Made by a program: the position numbers and the translations under genes. The notes beneath the pieces were generated by a model, which saw nothing but the letters and a program-made list of their open reading frames with translations, did no database searches and had not been told where the DNA came from. Below are positions 2-14,005 of a stretch of DNA of 46,204 bases, in pieces; within the stretch, counting starts at the first letter, position 1, and the number at the start of each line of letters is the position of its first letter. Origin of the DNA: a virus; IMG/VR virus record IMGVR_UViG_3300044631_000900, positions 1-46,204 of that record. The stretch is one strand, 5' to 3'.

Positions 2-445
2 AATGCGCCTTCAAACGGCCCTCAAAACTTCAATGCGCCTTCAAACGGCCCTCAAAACTTCAATGCACCTACAAATGGGCCACAAAACTTCAATGCTCCA
101 ACGAATGGCCCACAGAATTTTAATGCTCCAACGAATGGCCCACAAAACTTTAATGCGCCAACGAACGGGCCTCAAAACTTTAATGTCGCGAATGGTCCTC
201 AGAACTTCAATGTCGCGAATGGTCCTCAGAACTTTAATGCGCCAACGAACGGGCCTCAAAACTTTAATCCTGCAACTAACGGGCCTCAGAACTTCAATGC
301 GCCTACAAATGGTCCTCAGAACTTTAATGCGCCAACGACCGGGCCTCAAAACTTTAATGCGCCAACGACCGGGCCTCAAAACTTCAATGCGCCTTCAAAT
401 GGCCCACAAAACTTTAATCCTGCTACCAATGGTCCGCAGAATTTT
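2..445 (+). repeat. 30-bp coding tandem repeat (15 units)
   Basis: Fifteen head-to-tail units run from the left edge, thirteen of 30 bases and two (182-208 and 209-235) of 27 bases. Units differ at a few positions, many of them third codon positions. All units keep the reading frame. The array continues beyond the left edge. Confidence 0.95.
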
Positions 446-637
446 AATGCTCCAACTCCGGCGGTTCCAGGAAATGCAGCAAATGCGCTCGGTATTACTT
501 TCCCCGGATCAAATGCCGGTGGTACGCCTGCGCCGGTGATAAATAATCAGACGGCAAGCTACTATTCTTTTCCGGATGGCCAATCACATTCGGTAACTGT
601 AGCGCCCGGAGGATATATAGATATTACTATTGAATAA
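2..637 (+). CDS. Tail fibre/adhesin-like protein with decapeptide repeats, 3' part
   Basis: The gene is open at the left edge, so its start lies outside the window; 211 residues and the TAA stop are visible. The first ~148 residues are 15 tandem copies of a 10-residue unit, consensus NAPTNGPQNF. Two consecutive copies are shortened to NVANGPQNF, and two read NPATNGPQNF. The tail (about residues 149-211) is Gly/Ala/Asn-rich and ends in SVTVAPGGYIDITIE, a beta-type ending. Such low-complexity repeats followed by a short beta cap fit a phage fibre or adhesin. This frame was chosen over the other open frame because the repeat is regular and the product is not Arg/Met/Leu junk. The oxygenase gene starts 21 bases downstream in the same direction, suggesting a fibre-modification link. 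The role is inferred. Confidence 0.75.
   Translation, partial: NAPSNGPQNFNAPSNGPQNFNAPTNGPQNFNAPTNGPQNFNAPTNGPQNFNAPTNGPQNFNVANGPQNFNVANGPQNFNAPTNGPQNFNPATNGPQNFNAPTNGPQNFNAPTTGPQNFNAPTTGPQNFNAPSNGPQNFNPATNGPQNFNAPTPAVPGNAANALGITFPGSNAGGTPAPVINNQTASYYSFPDGQSHSVTVAPGGYIDITIE
538..545 (+). promoter_or_regulatory. Possible T4-type late promoter (GATAAATA)
   Basis: The octamer GATAAATA fits the NATAAATA late-promoter pattern of T4-like phages. It lies inside the 3' end of the repeat fibre gene, about 115 bases before the oxygenase start at 659. A match of this length can arise by chance in AT-rich coding DNA. Confidence 0.25.
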
Positions 638-658
638 GTGACTTGACGAGGATTTACT

Positions 659-1252
659 ATGCCATATATTATTCCTAAATATGGGAAACAATTGAATTGC
701 TTTGCAGTATGGTCGGGAGGATTTACTCCTGAAGAAGTCGATAAAATTATCGATCTCGAAAAACTCCAAGAGTTTGAAAAAGGAAAAGTTGGGCTAGAGA
801 AGAATGCCGCAGCTCCGGCTGAAACGCGAGATTCTGATATCTCGTGGATACATCATGATCAACACAGTGATTGGCTATTTCAGAGAATGTCAGGAATCGT
901 TTCTGTCGTGAACTACGACAACTTTATGTATGATATCGAAGGCGTCGAAGCTTTTCAATATACAAAGTACGGACCAAATCAACATTATACATGGCATTGG
1001 GATGTTGAATTTGGCTGGCAGAAATATATAAGAAAGATCTCAGCATCTCTGCTTCTTTCAGATCCGAGTGAATATGAAGGTGGAGAGTTAGAGATCGTAA
1101 ACAACGGAAACTTTGAAGACAAAGTTTCGTTTAAACCGAATAAAGGTGATATCGTATTCTTCGCTTCATGGATGCCACATCGAGTGAAGCCAATCACTTC
1201 TGGTTTTCGTAAGAGTCTTGTAGCATGGGTAATGGGTGAGAGAGAATGTTGA
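659..1252 (+). CDS. 2OG-Fe(II) oxygenase, prolyl 4-hydroxylase type
   Basis: 197 residues, about the usual size of a single-domain PKHD/P4H-type dioxygenase. These enzymes use Fe(II), O2 and 2-oxoglutarate to hydroxylate a substrate. The iron triad is visible as H113-x-D115 (in YTWHWD) and H174 (in WMPHRV), with R184 ten residues later as the likely 2-oxoglutarate anchor (GFRKSLVAW). The LSDPSEYEGGELEI signature at 133-146 is typical of the family. The start is supported by GAGGA nine bases upstream. It is the first gene of the modification operon and overlaps the next gene by 7 bases. It is clearly paralogous to the gene at 8767-9363. The substrate is unknown; Pro/Asn-rich fibre repeats just upstream are the obvious candidate (inference). 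Confidence 0.9.
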   Translation: MPYIIPKYGKQLNCFAVWSGGFTPEEVDKIIDLEKLQEFEKGKVGLEKNAAAPAETRDSDISWIHHDQHSDWLFQRMSGIVSVVNYDNFMYDIEGVEAFQYTKYGPNQHYTWHWDVEFGWQKYIRKISASLLLSDPSEYEGGELEIVNNGNFEDKVSFKPNKGDIVFFASWMPHRVKPITSGFRKSLVAWVMGEREC

Positions 1253-1983
1253 GTTGGAATCCTTTTAAAAAGAAACCTATTATTGAGTTTTATTGCCATC
1301 GCGATGATGTTGAGGCATTACCTCAGCCAAAGCCTGCGGCAAAATATATGCCAGAATGGTATAAAAGAATTCCTCCACTGATTACAGATGGAAGAGATGA
1401 TCGTGATTGGTCAGGATCTCATAGCTTTACTGCAAAAAAATGCATGCCGATGATCGACGCAATGTCATTAGGATATGTCATTCCTCTTATCGGCGACTTG
1501 ACAGTCAGATCAAATCACGACTGCAGTACAATTGAAGTCACGTCTTCTCCACAGATCAACGTATGTGAGTTTCATGACATTCGACAACTTGGAGAAAGAT
1601 CTGCTCCTGGATTTCCTGCACCTCCTTTGAAGTTTGTCAATCCATGGATTGTAAAGACTGCTCCGGGTTGGTCGACTCTTTTCATAGCTCCGATTAATAA
1701 CTTTGAAAGCCATTTTACATGTCTGTCAGGATTAGTTGATACAGATACATATCCAAAAGAAGTCAATTTTCCTGCAATCTGGCACACTCCAAATGCCGAC
1801 GTGCTTTTACTTGCTGGTACACCTTTAGTCATTGCCATTCCAATTAAGCGTGATGCTGTTCCATCAAAGCCCAATATTCGAAACATGAAAGAAGATGAAC
1901 ATCACTTAATTAATATCATATCAAAGATGCAAAACACTCGAAGAAGCGTATATACAAAAGAATTGAGAGTACCAAGAAAATGA
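1246..1983 (+). CDS. Unidentified conserved protein, paralogue A
   Basis: 245 residues; I do not recognise a proven function. It shares a layout with the genes at 1980-2720 and 9363-10076: an N-terminal Phe/Lys-rich start, a PEWYKRIPP stretch near residue 37, then C-x-P-x-x-D-x(4)-GYVIP-x(3)-D near 66-85. A core follows with PPLKF and FTCLSGLVDTD, and the C-terminal part has AGTPLVIAIPIKRD. The last motif resembles the closing strands of a jelly-roll (cupin-like) domain, which is only a guess. It may belong to Pfam DUF6065; this is from memory and unchecked. It sits directly behind an oxygenase, as paralogue C sits directly before another, so it probably works with these enzymes. Confidence 0.7.
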   Translation: MLSWNPFKKKPIIEFYCHRDDVEALPQPKPAAKYMPEWYKRIPPLITDGRDDRDWSGSHSFTAKKCMPMIDAMSLGYVIPLIGDLTVRSNHDCSTIEVTSSPQINVCEFHDIRQLGERSAPGFPAPPLKFVNPWIVKTAPGWSTLFIAPINNFESHFTCLSGLVDTDTYPKEVNFPAIWHTPNADVLLLAGTPLVIAIPIKRDAVPSKPNIRNMKEDEHHLINIISKMQNTRRSVYTKELRVPRK

Positions 1984-2720
1984 AAAACTTGTTTTCTTTA
2001 TTAAAACCAAAGAAAGATATTGAATTCGTAGATACTAAGAAGTTATCTTATCATAACTTTTCTGTTGAACGAGCGATTGATGTTCCAACAAATACTCGCA
2101 AGGTTCAACAAGACAAGTATGGCAAGCATCTGATGCCATACTGTCCGGGAATTTTAGACTATGCTCAATTTGGCTATATCATTCCGGCGTGGGTAGACAT
2201 TCATATTATGGCAAATAAAGCTGGTACTTCTTGGTATCTTGGAGACAGAGGACCGAGAGGAGATCGCGGATTTGACAATGGCGTAAAGATGGATGAAAAA
2301 TTTGTAGAAGGCGCATTTACTCCAATTGGAATTGATCCTACAGCAATCTTATTTCCATCTCCTTGGAAAATTTTTACTCAAAAAAACATTAGCGCATTGT
2401 TAATGCCTGCATTTTATCATTCTACTTTTCTTGAAGATCTATACATAACTCCTGGTTTGGTAGACTATAAGAGTTTCCATATTACAAACTTCATTTGCAT
2501 GCCGAAAAGAGAATGTAACGTTCACATTAAAGCGGGAGAACCTTTGTTGCACGTCATTCCTTTCCTCAATAAAGATATTACTGCTTCTGTTGGCCCAGCT
2601 TCAGATGAGATGATAGATAAAACTATGAATCTAATTCCCGGAGATGATAAGCAATACTATCGAAAGTATATGGGAATAAAAAAGAAATTTAATATGCAAA
2701 AAGAAGAGAATAAACAATGA
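1980..2720 (+). CDS. Unidentified conserved protein, paralogue B
   Basis: 246 residues, a divergent member of the same family as the preceding gene, which it overlaps by ATGA. The matching signature reads YCPGILDYAQFGYIIPAWVD, followed by a longer central part. It then has a FTQKNISALLMPAFYHSTF block and LVDYKSFHITNF, ending with the jelly-roll-like KAGEPLLHVIPF. The PEWYK motif is absent and replaced by KYGKHLMPYCP. The C-terminus is Lys/Glu-rich (KKKFNMQKEENKQ). Two divergent copies in tandem suggest a heteromer or different substrates. No catalytic residues can be identified. The function is not known. Confidence 0.7.
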   Translation: MKNLFSLLKPKKDIEFVDTKKLSYHNFSVERAIDVPTNTRKVQQDKYGKHLMPYCPGILDYAQFGYIIPAWVDIHIMANKAGTSWYLGDRGPRGDRGFDNGVKMDEKFVEGAFTPIGIDPTAILFPSPWKIFTQKNISALLMPAFYHSTFLEDLYITPGLVDYKSFHITNFICMPKRECNVHIKAGEPLLHVIPFLNKDITASVGPASDEMIDKTMNLIPGDDKQYYRKYMGIKKKFNMQKEENKQ

Positions 2721-3739
2721 ACATTTTTGTTTCAGTATGCTCGTATCAAGATCCTTTACTTCCTCATACCATCAAGAGTATGATGCAAACCAAATCCAAT
2801 CGGAATAATGTAGTCTATTCGATCTTCGAGCAAACTCGTTATGAAGATTCGTTGGCGTGCACAGAACCTGTGCTTGTAAGTCGAGATGATGTCATCTATA
2901 AAAGAATCGATCCCGAATACTCTGATGGTTGTGTTTGGGCAAGATATATTAATATGTTAAATATCACAAACGAGTATGACTTCATTTATCAAGTCGACTC
3001 ACATATGTTACATGATATGAATTGGGATCGAGCTCTGATTGAAGATTATAAGAGAGCGATGGATATGTGTGAAACCAATAAAGTCATCATTACTGGATCA
3101 TGTAAATCATTTATAATTGAAGAAAAAGACGGAGAGATTAAAACTTATCTTTGTCAAGAAGAAAATGATGCTTGTCAAGTCAAGTATTATACTATTGATC
3201 CGGATACTTTGATTCCAGATGTACATGGAGACGCGATTCCATCGACTGATATGCCAAGACCGGCGTTTCATATTATGGCAGGAAACTTCTTTACGCATGT
3301 CGATTGGATTGACAATGTCGGATTAGATCCAAAAGTCTTCTTTGTAGGAGAAGAAGTCATGATGACGATGATGTCATACGCTGCTGGATATAAAATGTTC
3401 CATCACAGTAAGATGGTTTCATATCACTTAGAAGACACGAGTAATTGGCATACGAAAACTCCGCCAGAAGATGCGAAAGCTGCGCGAAGAAGAAAAATAC
3501 TTTCAGAGATCGGTCGTTGGCAATGGAAAAAATATCTTGAGGCATGCAGAGAAGATCTTCTTTCTGAATTCCACAAAGAATTTGGTGTAGACTTTATTAA
3601 TCTTGATATTGAAGATCGTGCTCGAACTTATAGTCTTGACGTTGTTCCAGGTAAAATTGATCTTCTTGCTATTTCGAAGAAACCGAAGAAGAAAGTGAAA
3701 TTGCCGAAAACTCTTTTTATGAGTGAAGATGAAGAATGA
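2717..3739 (+). CDS. GlcNAc-type glycosyltransferase (Skp1 GnT-like family)
   Basis: 340 residues. The N-terminus IFVSVCSYQDPLLPHTIKSM is the opening Rossmann strand-loop-helix of a GT-A transferase. A CVWARY block (72-77) is followed by FIYQVDSHMLHDMNWD (89-104), which holds the D-S-H metal and nucleotide-sugar motif. Later come the acceptor-side elements AGNFF (188-192), FFVGEEV (208-214) and VSYHLED. This arrangement matches Pfam GlcNAc (PF11397), which includes the Dictyostelium enzyme that adds GlcNAc to hydroxyproline on Skp1. The Lys-rich C-terminus has no family match that I can see. It overlaps both neighbours by ATGA. In this operon, glycosylation of a hydroxylated fibre residue is a plausible role; a sugar acceptor on the host is also possible. 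Confidence 0.8.
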   Translation: MNIFVSVCSYQDPLLPHTIKSMMQTKSNRNNVVYSIFEQTRYEDSLACTEPVLVSRDDVIYKRIDPEYSDGCVWARYINMLNITNEYDFIYQVDSHMLHDMNWDRALIEDYKRAMDMCETNKVIITGSCKSFIIEEKDGEIKTYLCQEENDACQVKYYTIDPDTLIPDVHGDAIPSTDMPRPAFHIMAGNFFTHVDWIDNVGLDPKVFFVGEEVMMTMMSYAAGYKMFHHSKMVSYHLEDTSNWHTKTPPEDAKAARRRKILSEIGRWQWKKYLEACREDLLSEFHKEFGVDFINLDIEDRARTYSLDVVPGKIDLLAISKKPKKKVKLPKTLFMSEDEE

Positions 3740-4272
3740 TCGTTTGTTCTCTTCCACGATGTGGTGCTACTCGTTTTTGCTTGGATCTCCAAGAGAAAAC
3801 AAGTTTACCATTTGTGGGAGAGTTACATCCTGTTCACATTCAAAGTAATAGAAAACAACTTACTCACGAAACTAAGCATCAAACAAATTTTACGCAAGAT
3901 TCGTTTGCCGACTTGTTACAAGATCATAGTGAACACATCGTACTTGTAAATCAACACTCGTATCTTTTAGCCAATCAGGCAAGTTTCTTTATACTTCGTA
4001 AAAATATGAGAAACGCTGCTTTAAGTATGGCAAATTATTTGCTAAAAGTATATCCCGAATTAAAACCCAATGCCATTCGTTTTAATATTGGTTTGATGTA
4101 TAATGATTATCGTGCACTCGTCGCGTATTTAAATAAATACCAAAAAGAAGTTGTTTGGTACGAAGATTATTATGGTATCGAAGACACACATATGCCTTTA
4201 CTTGATTCGTATCCTGGCAAAGAGTCTATTATAAAAGAGATTGATTCGTATTATGAATCTAAAAGTTCATAA
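3736..4272 (+). CDS. Small sulfotransferase-like P-loop protein
   Basis: 178 residues, shorter than typical sulfotransferases (about 250-300). The N-terminus IVCSLPRCGATRF resembles the 5'-phosphosulfate loop that binds PAPS. ILRKNMRNAALSMANYLL (86-103) resembles the 3'-phosphate-binding segment with R88 and S97. Family members transfer sulfate from PAPS to sugars or proteins. The loop lacks the usual Lys or Ser-Gly-Thr core (CGAT instead of SGTT), so activity is uncertain. It overlaps the glycosyltransferase by ATGA and the desaturase by 20 bases. The context suggests modification of the same product as the glycosyltransferase, which is inferred. Confidence 0.6.
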   Translation: MIVCSLPRCGATRFCLDLQEKTSLPFVGELHPVHIQSNRKQLTHETKHQTNFTQDSFADLLQDHSEHIVLVNQHSYLLANQASFFILRKNMRNAALSMANYLLKVYPELKPNAIRFNIGLMYNDYRALVAYLNKYQKEVVWYEDYYGIEDTHMPLLDSYPGKESIIKEIDSYYESKSS

Positions 4273-4978
4273 AAGATATGTGCTTACATTCGCGCAATTA
4301 GCAGGCCCATTTATTACAATCTGGGCTCTGATTCAATATGCAACTTTTCCATGGATAATTGTTTCACTCACAGCGTTCTTTTTGATGAGAGTAATAGGTG
4401 GATCGATTACGTATCATCGAATCCACAATCATCGTACGCATACAATGAATCCTATCGTAGAATTCATATGCACGGCATTCGGATTCTATGGTTCATTTGC
4501 TTCGCCGCTTGAATTCTGTGTATCGCACGACAATCATCACAAGTATCATGACACTCAGAAGGATCCGCATCCTTACCATTTGCAAGGTTGGAAAATACTT
4601 TTTCCAATTCTTTGGAATAATGACACGAATCAAATAAATTTGAAAACAACAGTCAGACTGATTCGTAATAAGATTACCAATTTCTTCTATGAAAAATACT
4701 GGATTTTGTTATTCTTACCGTTTCTATTGTTATTCATATCGTTACCAGCATACTTGTTTATTTACATTGTTCCTGCTACATTGTCGATATGGTCCACAGG
4801 AATCGCATCTCTAAATCATGATAAAAACGGTCCAAAAGATATGGGATTTTGGTACGGAATTATCAGTGGTGGAGAACATATGCATAAACAACACCACGAA
4901 CAACCATTTGATACAAGCAAAGAAGGTTGGATAAATACCATCGCAGACATAATAGCTACAAAGAGAGTTAAGATATGA
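4253..4978 (+). CDS. Membrane fatty acid desaturase
   Basis: 241 residues from the ATG at 4253. This start is preferred over an upstream in-frame TTG at 4241 because AAAGAGA precedes it and the membrane domain begins soon after. Three histidine boxes of the acyl-lipid/acyl-CoA desaturase family are visible: HRIHNHRTH (55-63), HDNHHKYHD (92-100) and EHMHKQHH (208-215). Hydrophobic spans lie at about 10-48 and 150-178, with a shorter one near 70-90. The family introduces double bonds into acyl chains using a di-iron centre, acting in the host membrane. Marine T4-like phages are known to carry desaturases as auxiliary genes. It overlaps the next gene by ATGA. Its place inside a modification operon is odd and may only reflect a shared insertion site. 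Confidence 0.9.
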   Translation: MNLKVHKRYVLTFAQLAGPFITIWALIQYATFPWIIVSLTAFFLMRVIGGSITYHRIHNHRTHTMNPIVEFICTAFGFYGSFASPLEFCVSHDNHHKYHDTQKDPHPYHLQGWKILFPILWNNDTNQINLKTTVRLIRNKITNFFYEKYWILLFLPFLLLFISLPAYLFIYIVPATLSIWSTGIASLNHDKNGPKDMGFWYGIISGGEHMHKQHHEQPFDTSKEGWINTIADIIATKRVKI

Positions 4979-5529
4979 ATATTGTTTATACTGTTATAAA
5001 TGATTTGTCAGAAATAGATTTTGATGACTTGTATGAAAGATCAAAGGATGCTATTGATGCGAATTGGCCGGAAAATTCTACATTAACTGACGCCGAACGA
5101 AAAACCAACATGCGCACATTAATTGAAAGCGGAATTAATAATGAGTGGCCAGGATTAAATCCTCATGGCGCAAATGATACTTATATTATGATAAGAGCTT
5201 TTGATACTGTAGCTGGAAAAGATATGGGATTTGTAAGCGGGTTTATCCTTGAAAATGGAACATTAGATGGCAGACATTCACTCACTGCTCCGGATGAAAA
5301 CGGTTCTAGAAATTACGTTTTTAATCAAGAAAATGTAACAGCCAAAAATAATTTTAATATTGAAATTGGTATAACTAAACATTTGTATAGAAATATTCCT
5401 GCAAATTCAATCTTTCATAGAACTTTGCGTATGCGAGCAAACGCAGCAAACTATGAACTTTTAGAAGACGTAGATTCTCCAACGCACGGGCCAAATTTTA
5501 GAAATATATTAATACAATTAAATCTATGA
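4975..5529 (+). CDS. Hypothetical protein (possible acetyltransferase-like fold)
   Basis: 184 residues with no motif I can assign firmly. The N-terminus MNIVYTVINDLSEIDFDDLY is followed by an acidic helix-rich part. A central beta-type segment (FDTVAGKDMGFVSGFILEN, then a long stretch ending near NYVF) and an EIGITKHLYR segment follow. The order of elements recalls small GNAT-like proteins in phages, but no acyl-CoA pyrophosphate loop (R/QxxGxG/A) is visible, so this is weak. It is joined to both neighbours by ATGA overlaps, so it is translated with them. Confidence 0.6.
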   Translation: MNIVYTVINDLSEIDFDDLYERSKDAIDANWPENSTLTDAERKTNMRTLIESGINNEWPGLNPHGANDTYIMIRAFDTVAGKDMGFVSGFILENGTLDGRHSLTAPDENGSRNYVFNQENVTAKNNFNIEIGITKHLYRNIPANSIFHRTLRMRANAANYELLEDVDSPTHGPNFRNILIQLNL

Positions 5530-6230
5530 AGTTTTTATTGAATGTAGGAGCCGAGAAATCTGGCACTACTTGGTTATATGAGTATTTTAAAGAACACCCA
5601 GATTTCTATGATATGGGAAAAGAACTGAATATTATTCAGAGAGACGATTTAGTTCCTGTCTTAGAAGATGTAAGCGAATATAGAAAAGACATAGAGTCTT
5701 TTTTTCGGGCTGTTTCAAATATAAATCAAGTCACAGGCGACTTCACACATTATGAAGGCTCGAGTGAGAACATCTTTCGACTTATTAAAAACGGTTTACT
5801 AAAATACGATATCGAAGTAGTACCAGTTTATATTATGAGAGATCCTATTCAGAGGAGTTGGTCTTCTTGGAATATGATTGGAGGAGGTAAAATTCCAAAT
5901 CGGTCGTTAGCTTCACGATTTGTCATGAGCAATTTCATATCATGTAAATATAAAGAAACTATCGAAGCTTTGGACAGTGTGTTCGCAAATCCGCTCTACT
6001 TCTTTTATGAGGATTTTTTTACTCAAACCAATATCAATCAGATATGTGACGAGTTAGAAATTTCTCGACATCCAGCAGAATGTGATAATAAAGCAGGAGC
6101 TTCTTCCTATAAGAAAATGCCAAACAGTTTCGTCAAGGCTTTTGGTAAATCTTTAAAGAATAAAGAGGCTGCTAAATATGTTTTTGAAAGATTTGAAAAT
6201 GTACCATGGAAACTCGAGGATTATTCGTAG
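5526..6230 (+). CDS. Sulfotransferase family protein
   Basis: 234 residues. GAEKSGTTWLYEYFKEHP (8-25) is a complete PAPS 5'-phosphosulfate loop with K11 and the SGTTW core. YIMRDPIQRSWSSWN (102-116) is the 3'-phosphate-binding segment with R105, D106, P107 and the following serines. These match the Sulfotransfer families that move sulfate from PAPS onto carbohydrate or protein hydroxyls. A possible catalytic acid or histidine lies in the GDFTHYEG stretch (71-78). It overlaps the previous gene by ATGA, while the following oxygenase reading frame begins inside its 3' end. It is more canonical than the short homologue at 3736-4272. The acceptor is unknown. Confidence 0.8.
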   Translation: MKFLLNVGAEKSGTTWLYEYFKEHPDFYDMGKELNIIQRDDLVPVLEDVSEYRKDIESFFRAVSNINQVTGDFTHYEGSSENIFRLIKNGLLKYDIEVVPVYIMRDPIQRSWSSWNMIGGGKIPNRSLASRFVMSNFISCKYKETIEALDSVFANPLYFFYEDFFTQTNINQICDELEISRHPAECDNKAGASSYKKMPNSFVKAFGKSLKNKEAAKYVFERFENVPWKLEDYS

Positions 6231-6801
6231 ATCTACTCTCGATGAAGATATTCGCTTAACTTTTCTTGAAGGTTTAAATAGGCATACGAACATGCATTAC
6301 TTTGATCGTAATGCGCCTACAAATAAAACAGATGAAGCTGTGCTTGAATTTCTCGACAGAGAACAGTTTAATTGTAACAAAACTCATATTGAATATTGGT
6401 ATCAGGCGTATAAATCTTCTGGAGATTTGTGGCCTCATGTAGATTTTAATGAAAAGCTTCGGCACAGAATTGAGGCTGGAGAAAAGTTGAAACCAGAAGA
6501 ATTAATGTCTCCAATTACCATATCGTGTTACTTAGAAGCAATCGATCTTGAAGGCGGAGAATTTTGTATTTCTGAAAGAAGTTGGTTAGACTATGAAAAA
6601 GAACTGAGCCCTCCGGAAGTTTTAAAAGAAGAATTGTTAAAATATACACACGAGTCTTTTCAACCTACCGAAGGTGCGGTCTTATACTTCGAAGGCAGTC
6701 GATACTACCATTGGGTCAATGAAATCAAAAGCGGCTCTCGCAAGAGCATACTCATCAATTTCTGGGACAATTGTAGTCTTAACTCCACTTCGCCCAATTA
6801 A
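6178..6801 (+). CDS. 2OG-Fe(II) oxygenase-like protein
   Basis: 207 residues from the ATG at 6178, which has AGAGG nine bases upstream. Another in-frame ATG at 6199 would shorten it by 7 residues, so the start is not settled; either way it overlaps the sulfotransferase by 32-53 bases. The iron triad is visible as H87-x-D89 (WPHVDFN) and H178 (YYHWV), with R188 ten residues later (SGSRKSILINFW). The facial core also has a LEGGEFCISE strand like other members. It is not close to the P4H-type pair in sequence. The stop overlaps the stop of the converging minus-strand gene. The substrate is unknown. Confidence 0.75.
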   Translation: MFLKDLKMYHGNSRIIRRSTLDEDIRLTFLEGLNRHTNMHYFDRNAPTNKTDEAVLEFLDREQFNCNKTHIEYWYQAYKSSGDLWPHVDFNEKLRHRIEAGEKLKPEELMSPITISCYLEAIDLEGGEFCISERSWLDYEKELSPPEVLKEELLKYTHESFQPTEGAVLYFEGSRYYHWVNEIKSGSRKSILINFWDNCSLNSTSPN

Positions 6802-7406
6802 TTTCTAATGTCTATATTACCAGAAATAGAAATACGATGTTCGTCTGAAGTTTGAAACGGATATACCTGATGCTTAAGATAATTTGGAAACATAATAAGA
6901 GAACCTTCCCATGTCTTATCAATATCTAATTGAGTCGTACTAATTCCACCGTCTAATGAGTTATAAATGAATTCAAACTTTGATGCAACTTTATAGTTTG
7001 ATTCTCTTACATTTGGCATATTTAATTCCTCTTCTAAATCATAAGGAATTGCAATCCATATCACCCATGAAATAGCTTTGTGGTGAAAATGTATTGGATT
7101 ATATTCGTGTTTCTTCTGAAAATTTACCCAAGCATCATTATCAATGACATAATTATGATTTTCATAAAAATTAAATTTTCTTCTATATTCAAGAAACGTT
7201 TGCTCTATGCATTCTCTAAACTGCCCGTTAATAACATACTGAAATTCTGTTTCTAATTGCCCAGCTAAATTAGTATTGTATTTTTCCGGATTATTATCAA
7301 CTTGCTTTTGCAAGTCACAAGTCAACTCAGCAAAAATAGAAACTGGAATTCTTGTTTTAAGAACTCCTGGGTTATAAAGTTTTATTTCTGAAAATTCTAA
7401 GTTCAT
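6798..7406 (-). CDS. 2OG-Fe(II) oxygenase-like protein (2OG-FeII_Oxy_5 type)
   Basis: 202 residues. AWVNFQKKHEYNPIHFHHKA (92-111) carries the W-x-N and H-x-H pattern of putative phage 2OG-Fe(II) oxygenases (Pfam PF13759). H106 and H108 are candidate iron ligands in place of the usual H-x-D. WEGSLIMFPNYLKHQVYPF (166-184) supplies the distal H179, and EHRISISGN supplies R191 as the 2-oxoglutarate anchor. A GGTGA-like ribosome site lies 5 bases before the ATG. It is the last gene of the minus-strand cluster and converges on the plus-strand operon. The H-x-H arrangement is a known variation in this family as I recall it; activity cannot be judged here. Confidence 0.7.
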   Translation of the reverse strand: MNLEFSEIKLYNPGVLKTRIPVSIFAELTCDLQKQVDNNPEKYNTNLAGQLETEFQYVINGQFRECIEQTFLEYRRKFNFYENHNYVIDNDAWVNFQKKHEYNPIHFHHKAISWVIWIAIPYDLEEELNMPNVRESNYKVASKFEFIYNSLDGGISTTQLDIDKTWEGSLIMFPNYLKHQVYPFQTSDEHRISISGNIDIRN

Positions 7407-7424
7407 AATTTCACCGATAATAAT

Positions 7425-7646
7425 TTAGTTAATAGTAATTGTAGAGGTGTCTTTACATATGCTCATAGTACCTTCGCAACAGATATTCCAATCTTGACCT
7501 GTCTTTGCCCCACGGCTTGGAACATTAATGATAACATTTTTACATAGATATTCTTTACCATCTTCGAAAACGCGCCAGACATGATCTTCTGTCCCGCGAT
7601 TAGGTTGTCCTCTTGATTGATTGAATCTTATCATAAACTCAGACAT
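7425..7646 (-). CDS. Small conserved hypothetical protein
   Basis: 73 residues with a basic N-terminal part (MIRFNQSRGQPNRGTEDHVW). A short beta-type stretch (RVFEDGKEYLCKNVIINVPS) follows, then a two-cysteine segment (WNICCEGTMSICKD) that adds a third Cys. Similar short proteins occur in marine T4-like phages from memory, without known function. It lies one base after the stop-side boundary of the upstream oxygenase-like gene, so the two are translated together. The composition and position indicate a real gene and not a chance frame. Confidence 0.65.
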   Translation of the reverse strand: MSEFMIRFNQSRGQPNRGTEDHVWRVFEDGKEYLCKNVIINVPSRGAKTGQDWNICCEGTMSICKDTSTITIN

Positions 7647-7647
7647 A

Positions 7648-8286
7648 TTAGATTATTTCTGCTGTTGCATCATATACTATAGGTTCAATGTACGGACGTG
7701 TACCAATGTTCATGTGAATAAATTTGAAAGGTTTGGTTGATGTGTTACGAGTAAAGCTATGCGGTAGCCAGGAATTTGCAAACATTAGTTGACCAGGAAC
7801 TGGCGTAAAATTAATAGACGATGTTGCTGTGGTAATGTTAGAAGAATTATGTTCGTATAGTGGTAACATAAGTTTCATTGGTCGCGGATCATGAATCACC
7901 ATTCGCGGAGGATCTTTCGGGCACTCTAAAAAATAAAAAGCAACTAACTGACAGTCGCTGTGATTATGATACTCCATTGATGAATACTTATGGTGTTCTT
8001 GACTCCAACATTCGGTAAGATAAGTCGAAAGTCCATTCATGTTGTATCCTTGATCGCTCAAAAGATTCCATGCTGTGTTTAATGTGTACTGTATCAGTGG
8101 AAGAAGATCTTCTTCGTTAGACACATCTGCTTGCACGACTGGATATACATCGTTTATTTTTGTTATTTTGCGCGCGGCCCTTAACGCCGCATTTGATGCT
8201 GCTCTTGAGAAATCAAGAAGTTCTGGCTTCATAATACTATAGATAGGTGAGCTAAAATACTGCCACTGATCAAGTATGTCTGTCAT
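7648..8286 (-). CDS. 2OG-Fe(II) oxygenase-like protein (2OG-FeII_Oxy_5 type)
   Basis: 212 residues. SSMEYHNHSDCQLVAFYFLE (102-121) matches the H-x-H segment of PF13759-like phage oxygenases, with H107 and H109. VIHDPRP (130-136) is the following strand. PVPGQLMFANSWLPHSFTRN (162-181) contains the distal His, H176. The position where an Arg normally binds 2-oxoglutarate reads KPFKFIHMNIG, so Lys188 may stand in, or the protein may be inactive. AAGGAT lies 7 bases before the ATG. The gene starts 15 bases after the CxxCxxCC protein. The substrate is unknown. Confidence 0.65.
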   Translation of the reverse strand: MTDILDQWQYFSSPIYSIMKPELLDFSRAASNAALRAARKITKINDVYPVVQADVSNEEDLLPLIQYTLNTAWNLLSDQGYNMNGLSTYLTECWSQEHHKYSSMEYHNHSDCQLVAFYFLECPKDPPRMVIHDPRPMKLMLPLYEHNSSNITTATSSINFTPVPGQLMFANSWLPHSFTRNTSTKPFKFIHMNIGTRPYIEPIVYDATAEII

Positions 8287-8301
8287 AATAAAATCCTTAT
8301 G

Positions 8302-8760
8302 TTATGTATATTGGGAAAGATCAGCCTCTATCACTGTATCTAAAAACAGTCGGTTTCCAATCTTATTCCAACCACTGTTGACTTGATAAAATATATTTAA
8401 ACCGTTGTTCAAACCATACTGAATAGCCCAACTAAGTATTTCGGCTGTTAGCGGAGCGCCTGCTTCAAGCAGTTGTAAAAAGCTAAGATCAGGATTTTCG
8501 TGTTGTCTCCAAACCATAATTACGTTTGATTCGTCTGGTTTCATCCACATCGGAATAGTATCAAGACCGAGTGGAAACTTTTCATTTCCTAACCATACAC
8601 AGCTAAACGATTTGCACGGATTCTCAGGTCGTTGTTCATGTATCGAACATCCTTTTGTAGTTACAAAATGACATTTCCTTCCTGGCCAAAATTGATGGCC
8701 AAGAGCTTCTCCAGTTAACCAACCGCAGCACTTCGTGCAACTTCCACATTCTCTTGTCAT
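8302..8760 (-). CDS. CxxCxxCC (YkgJ-type) metal-binding protein
   Basis: 152 residues. The N-terminus ECGSCTKCCGW has C5, C8, C11 and C12, the CxxCxxCC signature of the zinc- or iron-chelating YkgJ family (Pfam PF03692). Further conserved-type Cys are C30, C38 (KGCSIHEQRP), C49 and C54 (NPCKSFSCVW). The second half is Cys-poor and may be a partner-binding domain. The family's molecular role is poorly known. It lies between two 2OG-Fe(II) oxygenase-type genes in one operon, 6 bases after the P4H-type gene. This makes an iron-handling or protein-modification role plausible, as inference only. Confidence 0.75.
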   Translation of the reverse strand: MTRECGSCTKCCGWLTGEALGHQFWPGRKCHFVTTKGCSIHEQRPENPCKSFSCVWLGNEKFPLGLDTIPMWMKPDESNVIMVWRQHENPDLSFLQLLEAGAPLTAEILSWAIQYGLNNGLNIFYQVNSGWNKIGNRLFLDTVIEADLSQYT

Positions 8761-8766
8761 ATTATC

Positions 8767-9363
8767 TCACTTAAATTGAGGACCAGCTAACCATACTACT
8801 AGAGTTTTACGAATGCCTTTTGTCACAGGAGTTACTCTGTGTAAAATAAAGGACGGGAATGCAACTACTAAACCTTTTTGTTTTGTGACTTGAGTCGGCA
8901 CGGGTGCATCAAATATCTCAAGATCTCCCCCCTCGTATTCAGAAGGATCAGATAATTGTATTACAAGAGATAATTTGCGAGGCGCATTCGTTGCATTTCC
9001 ACCTCTGTCAAGATGCCACGTATAATGATCGTCTTTTCCATCGTATATAGTATACTGAAAGTCCTCTACAAATCCCCATATATCTAGATTGAAGAATTCA
9101 CCGTTCAGTTGTCTTGCTATGAAAGCAATTCTATCATATATAAAATTAGTCTCGGGCGTAAGATTTATCCAACCTATTTTAGATGATCTAACTGCTTCTT
9201 CAACTTTACTATCAGGTCCAACACTAGCAGATTTGATCGTGAGACTATCACCAATACTAACTATTTTATCGATCTCTTCTTCAGTAAAACCATCACGCCA
9301 TGATGCAAAAGAAATTTCTGGTATACCTAACGATGGAGAAGGAGCTATTTGATATACTGCCAT
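8767..9363 (-). CDS. 2OG-Fe(II) oxygenase, prolyl 4-hydroxylase type
   Basis: 198 residues, the paralogue of the gene at 659-1252. The iron triad is H117-x-D119 (YTWHLD) and H175 (ILHRVTPV), with R185 as the 2-oxoglutarate anchor (KGIRKTLVVWLAGP). The LSDPSEYEGGDLEI signature is almost the same as in its paralogue, and both begin with an SWRDGFTEEEIDKI-type segment. The ATG overlaps the stop of the preceding paralogue C gene by one base (TAATG), so the two are translationally coupled. It is downstream of the Gly-X-Y adhesin gene, separated by three minus-strand genes. Adhesin X-Pro-Gly sites are the favoured inferred substrate. Confidence 0.9.
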   Translation of the reverse strand: MAVYQIAPSPSLGIPEISFASWRDGFTEEEIDKIVSIGDSLTIKSASVGPDSKVEEAVRSSKIGWINLTPETNFIYDRIAFIARQLNGEFFNLDIWGFVEDFQYTIYDGKDDHYTWHLDRGGNATNAPRKLSLVIQLSDPSEYEGGDLEIFDAPVPTQVTKQKGLVVAFPSFILHRVTPVTKGIRKTLVVWLAGPQFK

Positions 9364-10076
9364 TATTTACGCTCCCAAATATTATCTCGATAATGGGATT
9401 CATGACTTTGAAGCTTTCTACGTGTACCTTTGAGTGCTTTCAGTTCAGTTTCATTGAATGCTCTACATACATTTTTCGAAAACAAAGTATCTCTTTTAAT
9501 TGGAATAACCTGCATTAACGGTGTACCAGCAGGTAGAATACCTTTAAAATTGGGTTCGTTCCAAACAAATGGAAAGTTAATAAACTCAAAATAACCATCG
9601 CAGTCTACCATACCCGAAAAACAAGTAAATCTTGGATCAGGTCTATTTAATGGTGGAACAAACAACAGTGAGTATCCTTTCGGGCAGTTGATTGCCCACC
9701 AGTTCATGAATTTAATTGGAGGTTTTGGTAAATGTGGAGCGGGGCATTTGTCAGATGTTACTTGCCACTGTAAATGATTCTCGATCATTGCTCTCGGATA
9801 TTTGCTGTTGTATTCAATGAACGAACAATCTTCATTCGAAGTGATTTCAACATCAGCAACGAGTGGAATAATCCAACCCGTGATCATCGCATCAAGAAAA
9901 GGTGGGCATCTTTTGAGAGTAGATTGATCAAAGCCTACATCCTTCTTCATTGGCAAAGCTTTATACCATTCTGGTATCAGTTTGCGGGCAGGATAAGGTT
10001 CTGGTATATTTCCTAAATCATCATCATAGCAAAGAAATTCTAGTTTAGGCTCATTCTTTTCAAAAAACGAAAACAT
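9363..10076 (-). CDS. Unidentified conserved protein, paralogue C
   Basis: 237 residues from the ATG at 10076; an in-frame TTG one codon upstream is less likely. It is the third member of the family seen at 1246-1983 and 1980-2720, closest to paralogue A. Matching blocks are PEWYKALP, RCPPFLDAMITGWIIPLVAD and PIKFMNWW. FTCFSGMVDCDGYFEFINFP and AGTPLMQVIPIKRD follow. The ATG overlaps the TGA of the upstream small gene, and the TAA overlaps the ATG of the P4H-type oxygenase. It thus forms the same pair (oxygenase plus this family) as on the other strand, in the opposite order. The function is unknown; a partner or acceptor-binding role with the oxygenase is inferred. Confidence 0.75.
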   Translation of the reverse strand: MFSFFEKNEPKLEFLCYDDDLGNIPEPYPARKLIPEWYKALPMKKDVGFDQSTLKRCPPFLDAMITGWIIPLVADVEITSNEDCSFIEYNSKYPRAMIENHLQWQVTSDKCPAPHLPKPPIKFMNWWAINCPKGYSLLFVPPLNRPDPRFTCFSGMVDCDGYFEFINFPFVWNEPNFKGILPAGTPLMQVIPIKRDTLFSKNVCRAFNETELKALKGTRRKLQSHESHYRDNIWERK

Positions 10077-10282
10077 CAATTTTGTCCATTTCCAGGTTTT
10101 TCATAGTGTATTCCACCAGATTCAATAAATTTTTTACATTGCTCGACGTCGCTCGCACCTCTCAGAATATGATCATCATGCAAACTAAAATGTAAGCTTG
10201 AGATCCATATTCTGAGATGTGGTGGAAGTTTGTCATAGCAACGCATTACCAATGCCATTCTTTGTATGTTAACATGTTCCAA
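10076..10282 (-). CDS. Small hypothetical protein
   Basis: 68 residues from a TTG at 10282; an ATG at 10258 would give 60 residues and no strong ribosome site decides between them. The sequence is short and helix-rich (LPPHLRIWISSLHFSLHDDH, then DVEQCKKFIESGG), with no recognised motif. It ends with a one-base TGATG overlap onto paralogue C, which argues that it is expressed. A chance frame is less likely because of this coupling, though not excluded. Confidence 0.5.
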   Translation of the reverse strand: MEHVNIQRMALVMRCYDKLPPHLRIWISSLHFSLHDDHILRGASDVEQCKKFIESGGIHYEKPGNGQN

Positions 10283-10310
10283 ATGAATGACTCTATTATA
10301 TATATGTAAA

Positions 10311-10616
10311 TTACAGGGCTGCTAGTTCGACTAAGTTGCTCTCTGTGATGGCATCTAAGCCAATCAATGCTTGTTTGACTGCGGTAAAATCGTCATGTTT
10401 TTCATCGTAGATGACAAATGGAAAATCAGTAAATTCTCCAATATCCCATGTATTTAGAGCATTGAATACAGATTCGTATTGACTACTATCGTTGTATGAT
10501 AAATGAGTAAACTCAATGTTATTATCCTGTAGCCACTGATAGGCTGCAGCAGAGTCGTTGCCACCTGTCGTAGTCAAACCAGTATAAAGATAAACGTCTT
10601 TAATTCCTACTAGCAT
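10311..10616 (-). CDS. Small thioredoxin/glutaredoxin-fold-like protein without cysteines
   Basis: 101 residues. The pattern IKDVYLYTG, AAAYQWLQDNNIEFTHLSY, FTDFPFVIYDEKHDD and a C-terminal helix follows the strand-helix-strand and cis-Pro (FPFV) order of glutaredoxin-type folds. The C-x-x-C active site is missing, so redox chemistry is unlikely. From memory, similar short proteins occur in marine T4-like phages next to fibre genes. AAGGAAA lies 8 bases before the ATG. The gene follows the Gly-X-Y adhesin and may help its assembly. This fold call is tentative. Confidence 0.6.
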   Translation of the reverse strand: MLVGIKDVYLYTGLTTTGGNDSAAAYQWLQDNNIEFTHLSYNDSSQYESVFNALNTWDIGEFTDFPFVIYDEKHDDFTAVKQALIGLDAITESNLVELAAL

Positions 10617-10642
10617 GTATTGTTTCCTTTTTGTTATTTGTG

Positions 10643-13600
10643 CTAAAATGTTACACTCATCGTACCATTAGCGCTGCCTGTTCCAATATTTATAGAAACT
10701 ATTTGATATGGGTATACTTTTACTGATACTGAATTTGTCGTAGTACCAATATTACCAGCGTTTCCTGATGCTCCAGGATTTGATGTGCCGGCTGTTCCGG
10801 CGGTCGCTCCAGTTCCAGCACTACCTGCTGTGCCAGTATTTCCTGCTGCTCCTGCGCCTCCTGGATTTCCAGCCGCACCATTTGTAGCTCCAGTTCCAGC
10901 TGCTCCTGTTGTGCCAGCATTACCAGCAGCTCCGGCACCGCCTGGGTTTCCAGCCGCACCATTTGTAGCTCCAGTTCCTGCATTGCCAGTCGCTCCAGCA
11001 TTTCCTGCTGCTCCTGCACCTCCTGGATTTCCAGCTGCACCATTTGTAGCTCCAGTTCCTGCATTGCCAGTCGCTCCGGCATTTCCTGCAGCGCCGGCAT
11101 TACCAGGACTTCCTGCTGCTCCTGGATTTGCTCCAGTTCCTGCCGCTCCTGTTGTACCAGCATTTCCGTTGGCTCCTGCACCGCCTGGACTTCCTGCTGC
11201 TCCTGGATTTGCTCCAGTTCCTGCCGCTCCTGTTGTACCAGCGCTTCCTGCAGCGCCGGCATTACCAGGACTTCCTGCTGCTCCAGCGTTTGCTCCAGTT
11301 CCTGCGGCCCCAGTATTTCCAGCACTTCCATTGGCGCCTGCATTACCAGGACTTCCTGCTGCTCCAGCGTTTGCTCCAGTTCCTGCGGCTCCTGTATTTC
11401 CTGCGCTGCCTGGTGTTCCTGCATTACCTGAACCACCGGCAGCGCCCGAAAGAAGTCCTCCATTGCCGCCTGCGCCGCCGTTGCCGTTAGTAGCACCACT
11501 TATGTTGCCTGAATTACCCGCGGTACCAGCATTGCCGGCGCCGCTACCACCTTGCTTTAAAGTCCAACCCGATGCTCCGCCTCCGCCTCCGCCGCCTCCG
11601 CCGCCTCCGCCTACACCAGCGTTGCCAGGAGATCCGGAGTTACCCGCCGTACCACCAGCTCCTCCTGCACCACCGGCGCCATTTGTTCCTGGGTTACCAG
11701 CATTGCCAGTGGCTCCTGGATTCCCAGCATTTCCTCTTGCACCGCCTGCACCACCAGCACCGTTATTTCCTGGATTACCAGCATTGCCAGTGGCTCCTGG
11801 ATTACCAGCATTACCAGCAGCACCGCCTGCACCACCAGCACCGTTATTTCCTGGATTGCCGGCATTACCAGTGGCTCCTGGATTACCAGCATTACCACCA
11901 GCTCCTCCTGCACCACCAGCCCCATTGGTGCCAGGATTGCCTGTTCCTCCAATACCACCAGATGTCCCAGCTGTACCACCAGCACCACCAGTTCCTGCAG
12001 CTCCATTATTACCGGGATTGCCTGTTCCTCCAATACCTCCGGAAGTACCGGCCGATCCTCCGGCGCCGCCTGTACCAGCAGCTCCATTGTTACCGGGATT
12101 GCCTGTTCCTCCAATACCACCAGATGTCCCAGCTGTACCACCAGCACCGCCAGTTCCTGCAGCCCCATTATTTCCGGGATTGCCTGATCCACCTGGATTT
12201 CCAGAAGTTCCGGCCGAGCCAGCTGCTCCGTTTGTAGCATTTCCTCCAGCCCCACCAGTACCACCGGTTCCACCTGGAAAATTAGCTAAGGAACCAAACG
12301 TTGAAACGTTGCCTGGGTTTCCACTTGATCCCGGATTTCCGTTTGCTGCGCCAGTCCCAGCATTACCAGCAGCTCCGGCACCGCCTGGATTTCCTGCTGC
12401 TCCTGGATTAGCTCCAGTGCCAGCATTACCATTTGCTCCAGTATTTCCTGCTGCTCCGGCATTTCCAGGGCTCCCTGCTGCCCCTGGATTAGCTCCAGTG
12501 CCGGCATTACCATTTGCACCTGGATTTCCTGCTGCGCCGGCATTACCTGGATTGCCAGTAGATCCAGCGGTTGCCCCTGTTCCTGCATTACCATTTGCTC
12601 CAGTATTTCCTGCTGCGCCTGCATTACCTGGATTTCCTGCTGCTCCAGCAGTTGCCCCTGTACCTGCGGCCCCTGTTGTGCCGGCATTACCATTAGCACC
12701 GGCACCGCCAGGACTTCCTGCTGCTCCGGCGTTTGCTCCAGTTCCAGCCGCCCCTGTTGTGCCGGCATTACCATTGGCACCAGCTCCACCAGGACTTCCT
12801 GCTGCTCCAGCGTTTGCTCCAGTTCCTGCTGCTCCAGTATTTCCAGCATTTCCATTGGCCCCAGCTCCACCGGGACTTCCTGCTGCTCCAGCAGTTGCCC
12901 CTGATCCTGCGGCTCCAGTATTTCCAGCACTTCCATTGGCACCCGCACCACCTGCACTCCCTGAATTACCAGTCACTCCGCTACCGCCGCCTCCGCCGCC
13001 GCCACCGCCGCCGCCGCAAACGCACCCCCCAAGATTTGCGCTTCCACCAAAGCCACCATTTCCTCCGCCAGGAGAGCCTCCGGCGCCGCCGGGGGCAGAA
13101 CAAGGCGCAAATGGGGTGCCAAAACAACCGCAGCCACCGCCCGGACTACCACCGCTACCGGCTCCGCCACCGCAAGGTCGGGCTGAACCTTGTCCGCCGC
13201 CTCCTCCCGTACCTGCGCTACCGCCAGTGCCACCAGCACCGCCGGCACCATTATTTCCTGGATTTCCAGAGTTTCCTGTGGCACCTGGATTCCCAGCATT
13301 TCCTCTTGCACCGCCAGCACCGCCGGCACCATTGGTACCAGGATTACCAGAGTTTCCTGTGGCACCTGGATTCCCAGCATTACCAGCAGCACCGCCAGCA
13401 CCGCCGGCGCCATTTGTTCCTGGGTTACCAGCATTGCCAGTGGCACCTGGATTCCCAGCATTACCAGCAGCACCGCCTGCACCACCGGCACCATTAGTAC
13501 CGGGATTGCCGGAGTTTCCTGTCGCTCCAGCATTTCCAGCAGTACCACCAGCACCGCCAGCTCCGCCAGCACCATTCGTACCTGCATTGCCAGTGGCACC

Positions 13601-14005
13601 TGGATTCCCAGCATTCCCTGCAGCACCTCCGGCTCCTCCTGGGCCGCCAGCACCGTTTGTGCCAGCATTTCCTGATGCGCCGGGATTTCCAGATGTTCCA
13701 GCTGTACCACCAGCACCGCCAGCTCCGCCGGCCCCGTTTGTGCCAGCATTTCCTGATGCGCCAGGATTGCCAGATGTCCCAGCTGTACCACCAGCACCAC
13801 CAGTTCCTGCGGCCCCATTATTTCCAGGATTACCAGCATTGCCAGCAGTACCAGGATTGCCTGCATTACCAGCGTTTCCATTGCCGCCACGACCAGATAT
13901 ATCTATAGAATATACGCCTGCAGGAACGACGAATGTTGCGGGGGCATTGAATACTTGTGTGGCTGGAGCAGCCTTACCTGAAGCTCTAAATACATTTAAT
14001 GGCAT
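10643..14005 (-). CDS. Giant Gly-X-Y (collagen/polyglycine-like) tail-fibre adhesin
   Basis: 1120 residues. The N-terminal cap (1-38) ends in VVPAGVYSIDISGRGG, the entry motif of phage glycine-rich adhesin domains. Nearly all the rest is an unbroken Gly-X-Y register with Ala, Asn, Thr, Ser and Pro; Pro is mostly in Y, as in G-N-P and G-S-P. Three interruptions are visible. A Cys-rich Gly-rich stretch lies at about 268-345 (six Cys, run of Gly), a short STFGSLANFP linker near 570, and a Gly-run with ASGWTLKQGG at about 798-820. The C-terminus (about 1085-1120) is a beta-type cap. The two halves repeat the same layout. Phage S16 gp38 folds similar repeats into polyglycine-II sandwiches that bind receptors. 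The role at the fibre tip is inferred. The opposite strand also reads open, which the codon pattern explains. Confidence 0.85.
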   Translation of the reverse strand: MPLNVFRASGKAAPATQVFNAPATFVVPAGVYSIDISGRGGNGNAGNAGNPGTAGNAGNPGNNGAAGTGGAGGTAGTSGNPGASGNAGTNGAGGAGGAGGTAGTSGNPGASGNAGTNGAGGPGGAGGAAGNAGNPGATGNAGTNGAGGAGGAGGTAGNAGATGNSGNPGTNGAGGAGGAAGNAGNPGATGNAGNPGTNGAGGAGGAAGNAGNPGATGNSGNPGTNGAGGAGGARGNAGNPGATGNSGNPGNNGAGGAGGTGGSAGTGGGGGQGSARPCGGGAGSGGSPGGGCGCFGTPFAPCSAPGGAGGSPGGGNGGFGGSANLGGCVCGGGGGGGGGGGSGVTGNSGSAGGAGANGSAGNTGAAGSGATAGAAGSPGGAGANGNAGNTGAAGTGANAGAAGSPGGAGANGNAGTTGAAGTGANAGAAGSPGGAGANGNAGTTGAAGTGATAGAAGNPGNAGAAGNTGANGNAGTGATAGSTGNPGNAGAAGNPGANGNAGTGANPGAAGSPGNAGAAGNTGANGNAGTGANPGAAGNPGGAGAAGNAGTGAANGNPGSSGNPGNVSTFGSLANFPGGTGGTGGAGGNATNGAAGSAGTSGNPGGSGNPGNNGAAGTGGAGGTAGTSGGIGGTGNPGNNGAAGTGGAGGSAGTSGGIGGTGNPGNNGAAGTGGAGGTAGTSGGIGGTGNPGTNGAGGAGGAGGNAGNPGATGNAGNPGNNGAGGAGGAAGNAGNPGATGNAGNPGNNGAGGAGGARGNAGNPGATGNAGNPGTNGAGGAGGAGGTAGNSGSPGNAGVGGGGGGGGGGGGASGWTLKQGGSGAGNAGTAGNSGNISGATNGNGGAGGNGGLLSGAAGGSGNAGTPGSAGNTGAAGTGANAGAAGSPGNAGANGSAGNTGAAGTGANAGAAGSPGNAGAAGSAGTTGAAGTGANPGAAGSPGGAGANGNAGTTGAAGTGANPGAAGSPGNAGAAGNAGATGNAGTGATNGAAGNPGGAGAAGNAGATGNAGTGATNGAAGNPGGAGAAGNAGTTGAAGTGATNGAAGNPGGAGAAGNTGTAGSAGTGATAGTAGTSNPGASGNAGNIGTTTNSVSVKVYPYQIVSINIGTGSANGTMSVTF
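10687..10694 (-). promoter_or_regulatory. T4-type late promoter (TATAAATA)
   Basis: Exact TATAAATA on the minus strand, inside the 3' end of the adhesin gene and 71 bases before the ATG at 10616. T4 late promoters consist of this single -10-like element. It would drive the 10616-6798 modification cluster at late times. A chance occurrence in coding DNA is possible. Confidence 0.45.

Follow-up and report, generated by a model that had tools for sequence, protein, structure and literature searches.

Do tailed phages hydroxylate the prolines of their own fibers? The question is raised by a 46,204-base virus record, IMGVR_UViG_3300044631_000900 (the window, meaning this whole stretch), which is T4-like by its baseplate genes and whose wedge protein has its best phage counterpart, among the tblastn matches listed, in Caulobacter phage Cr30 (37% identity). 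Two convergent gene runs, on the plus strand at 659-6801 and on the minus strand at 10616-6798, abut at their 3′ ends and are bracketed by genes for two repeat-fiber-like proteins, A and S. A preliminary description had read the enzymes in between as one sequential pathway that hydroxylates, glycosylates and sulfates the fibers. The data show instead two related modules, each with one fiber and one prolyl 4-hydroxylase (P4H)-type oxygenase. We favor, with a probability of about 0.68, a reading of the region as two fiber-maturation modules in which prolines of S and A would be hydroxylated and a sugar would be added to A.

Two modules of fiber and oxygenase genes

The genes of the two modules, together with a further fiber gene that provides an internal contrast, are as follows.

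A, 2..637, plus strand: C-terminal part of a Pro/Asn-rich repeat fiber-like protein (unit NAPTNGPQNF), presumed substrate of B; its 5′ end lies beyond the contig
B, 659..1252, plus strand: P4H-type 2-oxoglutarate (2OG)-Fe(II) oxygenase of module 1 (PF13640, E 1.7e-17; phrog_61)
C, 1246..1983, plus strand: phrog_7084/DUF6065 protein (PF19541, 1.8e-12; phrog_7084, 6.3e-53)
D, 1980..2720, plus strand: divergent phrog_7084 protein (1.1e-19)
E, 2717..3739, plus strand: GT60/PF11397 glycosyltransferase (2.5e-24), at an invariant place in its cassette
O, 8767..9363, minus strand: P4H-type 2OG-Fe(II) oxygenase of module 2 (PF13640, 6.1e-15; phrog_61; predicted fold, Z up to 19.9)
P, 9363..10079, minus strand: phrog_7084 protein (1e-59) with a dUTPase-like predicted fold (model and fold search)
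S, 10643..14005, minus strand: Gly-X-Y fiber-like protein, presumed substrate of O (PF01391, 4.5e-21; 52 Pro-Gly vs 1 Gly-Pro)
T, 14021..15772, minus strand: collagen-like tail fiber of the Gly-Ala-Gln kind, presumed non-substrate (0 Pro-Gly)

The preliminary description was right about much of this content: the two repeat fiber-type genes flank the two convergent operons at the coordinates given, B and O are P4H-type oxygenases with intact iron and 2OG residues, and E, described there as of the N-acetylglucosamine (GlcNAc) type, is a glycosyltransferase. It had overlooked the three phrog_7084 genes (C, D and P) and the desaturase-like gene G, and phrog_7084, a recurrent partner, had no place in its pathway.

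B and O are prolyl-hydroxylase-type enzymes, with peptidyl-proline hydroxylation as their predicted activity. The HxD...H iron residues and the 2OG-binding Arg are present in both and in all 139 rows of an alignment of homologs (E<1e-20, 170-319 amino acids; 137 distinct sequences, B and O included). An AlphaFold model of O, with a pLDDT of 84.8, matches the Pseudomonas putida P4H (Z 19.9), PHD2 (Z up to 19.2), an algal P4H with a bound Ser-Pro peptide (17.9) and vCPH, the collagen P4H of chlorella virus PBCV-1 (17.4); OGFOD1 is likewise among the matches. A sequence-profile comparison with solved chains placed PKHD-type hydroxylases, PiuC among them, nearest, with vCPH next. Sequence searches of solved structures with E, I (a sulfotransferase gene, below) and phrog_7084 gave nothing useful.

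Proline position in the fibers

Prolines in S lie nearly all in X-Pro-Gly (52 Pro-Gly vs 1 Gly-Pro), with X mostly Asn or Ser, and the longest uninterrupted stretch comprises 78 Gly-X-Y triplets. S is so rich in Gly that its chains might form a polyglycine II bundle instead of a triple helix. The other collagen-like fibers of these phages have Pro mostly after Gly, or none. In contig L107, the T-type open reading frame (ORF) has 126 prolines at X and 0 at Y; the corresponding counts for S there are 1 and 49. With 0 Pro-Gly and 2 Gly-Pro in T of the window, T-type collagen fibers are unlikely substrates.

Because loci should not be chosen by P4H, IMG/VR was scanned for nucleotide patterns encoding triplet-spaced Pro-Gly or Gly-Pro, and P4H was then sought in the whole records. 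The loci of the two scans (at least 120 and at least 116, i.e., samples) were pooled and each ORF was classed by its content, whichever scan had found it. An ORF was kept if it had 40 or more triplets and either Pro-Gly or Gly-Pro in threefold excess over the other; those with fewer than 40 triplets, fewer than 8 Pro-Gly plus Gly-Pro, or more than 30% Pro were dropped, as were 36 "mixed" ORFs. P4H was found in 11 of the 15 X-Pro-Gly records compared with 11/76 Gly-Pro-X records (8/38 + 3/38; Fisher p 1e-5), and close relatives of O (E<=1e-70) in 9/15 and 0/76, respectively (Fisher p 6e-9); several records are near relatives, so these p values overstate independence, and as the records are fragments a miss does not prove absence. 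A P4H lies within 3 kb of 8/16 X-Pro-Gly ORFs and 6/85 Gly-Pro-X ORFs. One record with both fiber kinds (L255), which had also turned up in a P4H search, was counted as X-Pro-Gly only; counting it as both gives 12/77 and 1/77 for the Gly-Pro-X class. Another (L143) was scored as a miss, having a weak P4H match in a hidden Markov model run (6.6e-11) and none in the whole-record search. The co-occurrence of oxygenases and collagen-like fibers that the preliminary description had proposed as a check is, in these samples, far commoner for X-Pro-Gly fibers than for Gly-Pro-X fibers. The Gly-Pro-X control (11/76) also weakens proximity of P4H to any fiber as the whole story. Named phages were considered as test systems; in the nine records examined, a Gly-rich ORF was present in the stretch inspected only in S-CAM8 (12 Pro-Gly, 6 Gly-Pro) and HTVC033P (10 and 7, 9 and 8).

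Gene neighborhoods of the oxygenases

The neighbors of P4H genes were surveyed in 84 cluster representatives at 80% identity (the lineages of the window are L096 and L036). The first Gly-rich ORF upstream of P4H, one to five genes away, is X-Pro-Gly-rich in 33 of them; the others have a Gly-Pro-X ORF (7), another Gly-rich ORF (11), an A-type gene (2) or none (20), or are cut (11). When O and B of the window are counted too, the totals become 34 for X-Pro-Gly and 3 for A-type. The supported set of 19 tree rows around O contains 11 with an X-Pro-Gly neighbor, 4 with another Gly-rich ORF and 4 that are cut, and 15 of the 20 representatives that have no Gly-rich ORF fall in one 40-row group (support 88). 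On the P4H tree, the X-Pro-Gly-neighbor label requires 13 changes vs a shuffled mean of 27, a comparison to be discounted somewhat in that near-copies favor clustering of any label. The label rule for the tree was looser (at least 10 Pro-Gly and twice the Gly-Pro, less for short ORFs), and S-CAM8 was classed as X-Pro-Gly under it.

Two small genes complete module 2.

Q, 10076..10282, minus strand: small conserved gene preceding P (recurrence in relatives)
R, 10311..10616, minus strand: small conserved gene adjoining S (recurrence in relatives)

R, Q and P lie between S and O in several relatives. Both small genes recur beside S-type fibers; R has a chance-level Pfam match alone (TOPRIM_C, 0.048) and Q a weak DUF6525 match.

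Module 1 is defined by its glycosyltransferase. E scores 86.8 bits against PF11397 (curated cut-off 21), a family that includes the GlcNAc-transferase modifying hydroxyproline in Skp1. Its relatives in IMG/VR form 14 clusters at 80% identity, one of which (L045) is cut upstream of its phrog_7084 pair. Every one of the 13 clusters that have sequence upstream (39-100% identity) keeps the order A-type protein, P4H, phrog_7084, phrog_7084, GT60. In named phages, the sole GT60 match is a distant one in XacN1 (24.6% identity). A contig whose GT60 is identical to that of the window (L009) has a 563-amino-acid ORF with a Met start in place of the cut A. Judged by eye, the N-termini of A-type proteins are alike in all 12 that are uncut (roughly FNxPxN...PYGR...GxGGxGN), as are the C-termini (roughly YPD...VTVPxGG, less strictly so in L589 and L600); the central repeats differ, being VPGNATG, NYNVAYPIANQP or YNTVPGNPNPP. 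Pro content is 9.9-17.9% in A-type proteins; the same loci contain 151 other ORFs, whose median is 4.1% and up to 9% of which attain the lowest A-type value. Exact 5-mer repetition is small (0.07) in 2 of the 13 A-type proteins (L422 and L584), for which "repeat" is therefore a loose term. A itself matches Extensin_1 weakly (E 0.009, far under cut-off).

The terminal motifs of A resemble those of S, so the two modules appear, from their sequences, to be related by duplication. In L422 both stand in a single row, S-P-O-A-B-C-D-E.

Probable hydroxylation of the fibers

Modification of the neighboring fibers by hydroxylation is supported by the conserved order of the genes and by where Pro falls in S, and to that extent the enzymes do seem to act on phage fibers as first proposed. 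Fiber prolyl hydroxylation is our best reading of the sequences and models, and a probable one. In module 2, O, with its dUTPase-fold partner P, would hydroxylate Pro in the X-Pro-Gly triplets of S (mostly Asn-Pro-Gly) during infection, which would give its helix the kind of stability seen in animal collagen. In module 1, B, with C and D, would hydroxylate prolines of A, a Pro/Asn-rich repeat protein whose relatives are often also Tyr-rich, and E would then place a sugar, probably an N-acetylhexosamine (HexNAc), on the resulting hydroxyprolines. Glycosylation is supported for A only, by the presence of GT60 in the invariant fiber-P4H-7084-7084-GT60 cassette; as judged from gene order and family assignment, it is plausible, with the chances about even. 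That A and S are virion fibers at all is itself something we infer.

In addition to the near-copies and near relatives mentioned above, several pieces of evidence weigh against fiber hydroxylation: (i) In a pooled list, Gly follows only a minority of the A-type prolines, and B would therefore need a broader specificity than O. (ii) Four of the 15 X-Pro-Gly records yield no P4H; positions 1-6900 of L148, for example, hold an open ORF of 2299 amino acids with 375 Pro-Gly and 614 Gly-X-Y triplets, and no P4H was found in this 64.7-kb record. (iii) Some Gly-Pro-X fibers adjoin a P4H (L266 and L256), and 5 of the 36 mixed-type ORFs have one within 3 kb. (iv) Remoter P4H-like genes lie away from fibers: in 20 of the 84 representatives the six genes upstream include no Gly-rich ORF, 11 more are cut, and a P4H copy of S-ShM2 sits between uvsY and uvsW. 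(v) At 7789-9315 of L447, a Dehalococcoidia metagenome-assembled genome (MAG) chromosome, Q-P-O occurs, and no Gly-rich ORF was seen across 16.7 kb. (vi) A tblastn search with O matched 356 phage records, none at 60% identity or more; the best among the matches listed has 39.4%, and thus none of the named phages was found to carry a close relative of O.

Some of these observations would fit P4Hs with protein targets in the host, EF-Tu or a ribosomal protein for instance, in which case adjacency to fibers would reflect a hypervariable region that gathers accessory genes. The closest solved fold is the P. putida P4H in complex with EF-Tu, OGFOD1 is also matched, distant phage P4Hs lie away from fibers, and a pelagimyophage paper describes host-recognition clusters of pelagimyophages and cyanophages that gather accessory genes (PMC7029224). 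However, the cassette is invariant in 13/13 GT60 clusters, one genome holds two related fiber-P4H pairs, and P4H is associated far more strongly with X-Pro-Gly than with Gly-Pro-X fibers. We therefore consider host proteins unlikely as the main substrates.

The phrog_7084 partner

The best of the models of P has a pLDDT of 78.3 and the other four 54-64. dUTPases and dCTP deaminases fill both lists of fold matches (Z 10.1), and Foldseek returned no match at E<=0.001 (best E 3.5e-3). The GxVD and GTPLxQxIP segments of phrog_7084 resemble dUTPase motifs 3 and 4 by eye; no C-terminal Gly-rich arm was seen, also by eye. No mention of DUF6065 was found in the open-access papers searched.

A P4H lies within 3 kb of phrog_7084 in 42 of 49 clusters, a share that is biased because many of the 42 entered via P4H or GT60 searches. 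We rejected phrog_7084 as an obligate P4H partner because the other seven clusters lack a P4H match within that distance. These seven come from two haloviruses, a haloarchaeal chromosome, two cyanophages and, in two cases, a Phycisphaerales MAG. In the haloarchaeal tailed viruses and the haloarchaeal chromosome (L002, L003 and L448), phrog_7084 has about 40% identity, and in the two haloviruses its neighborhood includes a gene for ribonucleotide reductase or thymidylate synthase. In cyanophages syn9 and P-TIM40 (L004 and L005), two tryptophan halogenase genes stand directly ahead of the phrog_7084 gene, and in syn9 several annotated 2OG oxygenases follow it.

The dUTPase-like predicted fold and the nucleotide-metabolism neighbors in the haloviruses are what one would expect if the region served DNA hypermodification, with 2OG oxygenases hydroxylating bases, GT60 glycosylating them and dUTPase-like proteins handling nucleotides. 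We regard this as very improbable: the P4H model matches protein prolyl hydroxylases, the modules are located at fiber genes, and the Pro-position statistic is left unexplained. As for phrog_7084 itself, a role as an adaptor for the fiber is a guess, and a nucleotide enzyme is equally open. A general phage system, in which each repeat fiber has its own prolyl hydroxylase and dUTPase-fold chain presenters and one branch adds a hydroxyproline-linked sugar, is a tentative extension of fiber maturation that we think more doubtful than not; if true, it would be a phage counterpart of collagen and plant hydroxyproline-rich glycoproteins.

Accessory genes and sulfation

The remaining genes of the two runs are as follows.

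F, 3736..4272, plus strand: accessory gene, sulfotransferase-like by eye only; no family match
G, 4253..4978, plus strand: membrane desaturase-like accessory gene (NF049918, 3.5e-5, below cut-off; acyl-CoA desaturase, 1.2e-3)
H, 4975..5529, plus strand: accessory gene, family unassigned in Pfam, PHROGs and NCBIfam scans
I, 5526..6230, plus strand: sulfotransferase, accessory (PF00685, 2.3e-6)
J, 6178..6801, plus strand: 2OG oxygenase, accessory (PF13640, 5.4e-6, barely over cut-off)
K, 6798..7406, minus strand: 2OG-oxygenase-like (PF13759, 2.3e-12)
L, 7425..7646, minus strand: small gene, frequent companion of M
M, 7648..8286, minus strand: 2OG-oxygenase-like (PF13759, 3.2e-8)
N, 8302..8760, minus strand: CxxCxxCC protein (phrog_9155, 5.5e-30)

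The three further 2OG-oxygenase-like genes (J, K and M) and the CxxCxxCC protein (N) of the preliminary description were recovered by family searches. Its two sulfotransferase-like genes fared differently. I matches PF00685 with 27.7 bits (cut-off 22), whereas F has no match in Pfam (E<=0.1), PHROGs (E<=0.01) or NCBIfam (E<=0.05), leaving its identity as a sulfotransferase unproven. G is a membrane protein with His boxes, to which known families (DesA, acyl-CoA desaturase) match weakly.

Homologs of F-J after GT60 are confined to closer relatives, and even there they vary, with G alone in L025 and F, G and H in L046. A phmmer search (E<=1e-5) of the loci of 11 more distant cassettes, covering about 4-8 kb past GT60, recovered none of the five. 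Since F-J come and go in close relatives and are missing from the distant cassettes, we rejected the single hydroxylation-glycosylation-sulfation sequence for its last step; sulfation of the fibers is unsupported.

The desaturase-like and sulfotransferase genes would fit an island that remodels the host envelope, in which glycosyltransferase, sulfotransferase and desaturase act on lipopolysaccharide or lipids and exclude other phages. The same role is proposed for pelagimyophage glycosyltransferases in the paper cited above, which describes the fiber region as a host-recognition cluster containing glycosyltransferases (PMC7029224). For the region as a whole this is improbable, as GT60 is tied to A and P4H and the F-J homologs are missing from the 11 more distant cassettes; an envelope role may well hold for F-J alone.

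On the minus strand, K and M have HxH in place of HxD (by eye). M and L are paired beside P4H in L098, L386, L401, L402, L405, L395 and L102, with N intervening in L386 and L102. In a 2010 cyanophage genome paper, cyanophage 2OG oxygenases are attributed to 2OG levels or DNA repair (PMC3037559). Such a shift of the host 2OG pool or a repair function, put forward there for cyanophages, would leave both the conserved fiber partner and the GT60 link unexplained, and of all the readings considered we give it the least credence.

Comparison with known systems

In a 2022 Baltic Sea study, prolyl 4-hydroxylase (P4HA) counted among the most abundant auxiliary metabolic genes in water viruses, at 62% of water stations; collagen in viral tail fibers is mentioned there, and the viral use of P4H is termed cryptic (PMC9301287). 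The collagen-like prophage tail fibers of E. coli O157 are Gly-X-Y phage fibers as well, with Pro common at X and infrequent at Y according to a 2012 paper, the reverse of S; the same paper describes bacteria and viruses as being without such hydroxylases (PMC3368898). Among the open-access papers listed, as judged by titles and abstract openings and with subscription papers mostly not covered, we found no description of a hydroxylation pathway for tailed-phage fibers. The conserved fiber-P4H-GT60 order allows enzyme, substrate and residues to be named. If the reading is true, hydroxyproline, and perhaps also a sugar linked to it, would be present in phage structural proteins, with a bearing on fiber stability, receptor binding and recombinant collagen production.

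Four known systems offer likenesses. Plant extensins and other hydroxyproline-rich glycoproteins likewise combine a repetitive Pro-rich protein with a P4H and a glycosyltransferase; the glycosyltransferase family differs, the present genes are of phage origin, and homology is not claimed. In the Skp1 pathway of Dictyostelium and Toxoplasma, a P4H acts first and the GT60 enzyme Gnt1 follows. The P4H and PF11397 glycosyltransferase form a unit in both cases, here as adjacent genes in 13/13 clusters, but Skp1 is modified at one site, whereas the presumed phage substrate is repetitive with dozens of prolines. Mimivirus L230 is a lysyl hydroxylase-glucosyltransferase that acts on viral collagen. 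It shares with our proposal the virus-encoded hydroxylation and glycosylation of a collagen-like virus protein, and differs in its use of lysine, in being one bifunctional protein and in belonging to a giant eukaryotic virus. Finally, animal collagen with its P4Hs, and vCPH of chlorella virus PBCV-1, have in common with module 2 the 2OG-Fe(II) P4H fold and residues and a Gly-X-Y protein with X-Pro-Gly. Unlike those systems, the enzyme here is a small single-domain protein of a tailed phage, often encoded beside phrog_7084, and S, unlike animal collagen, has a low Pro content and mostly Asn or Ser at X.

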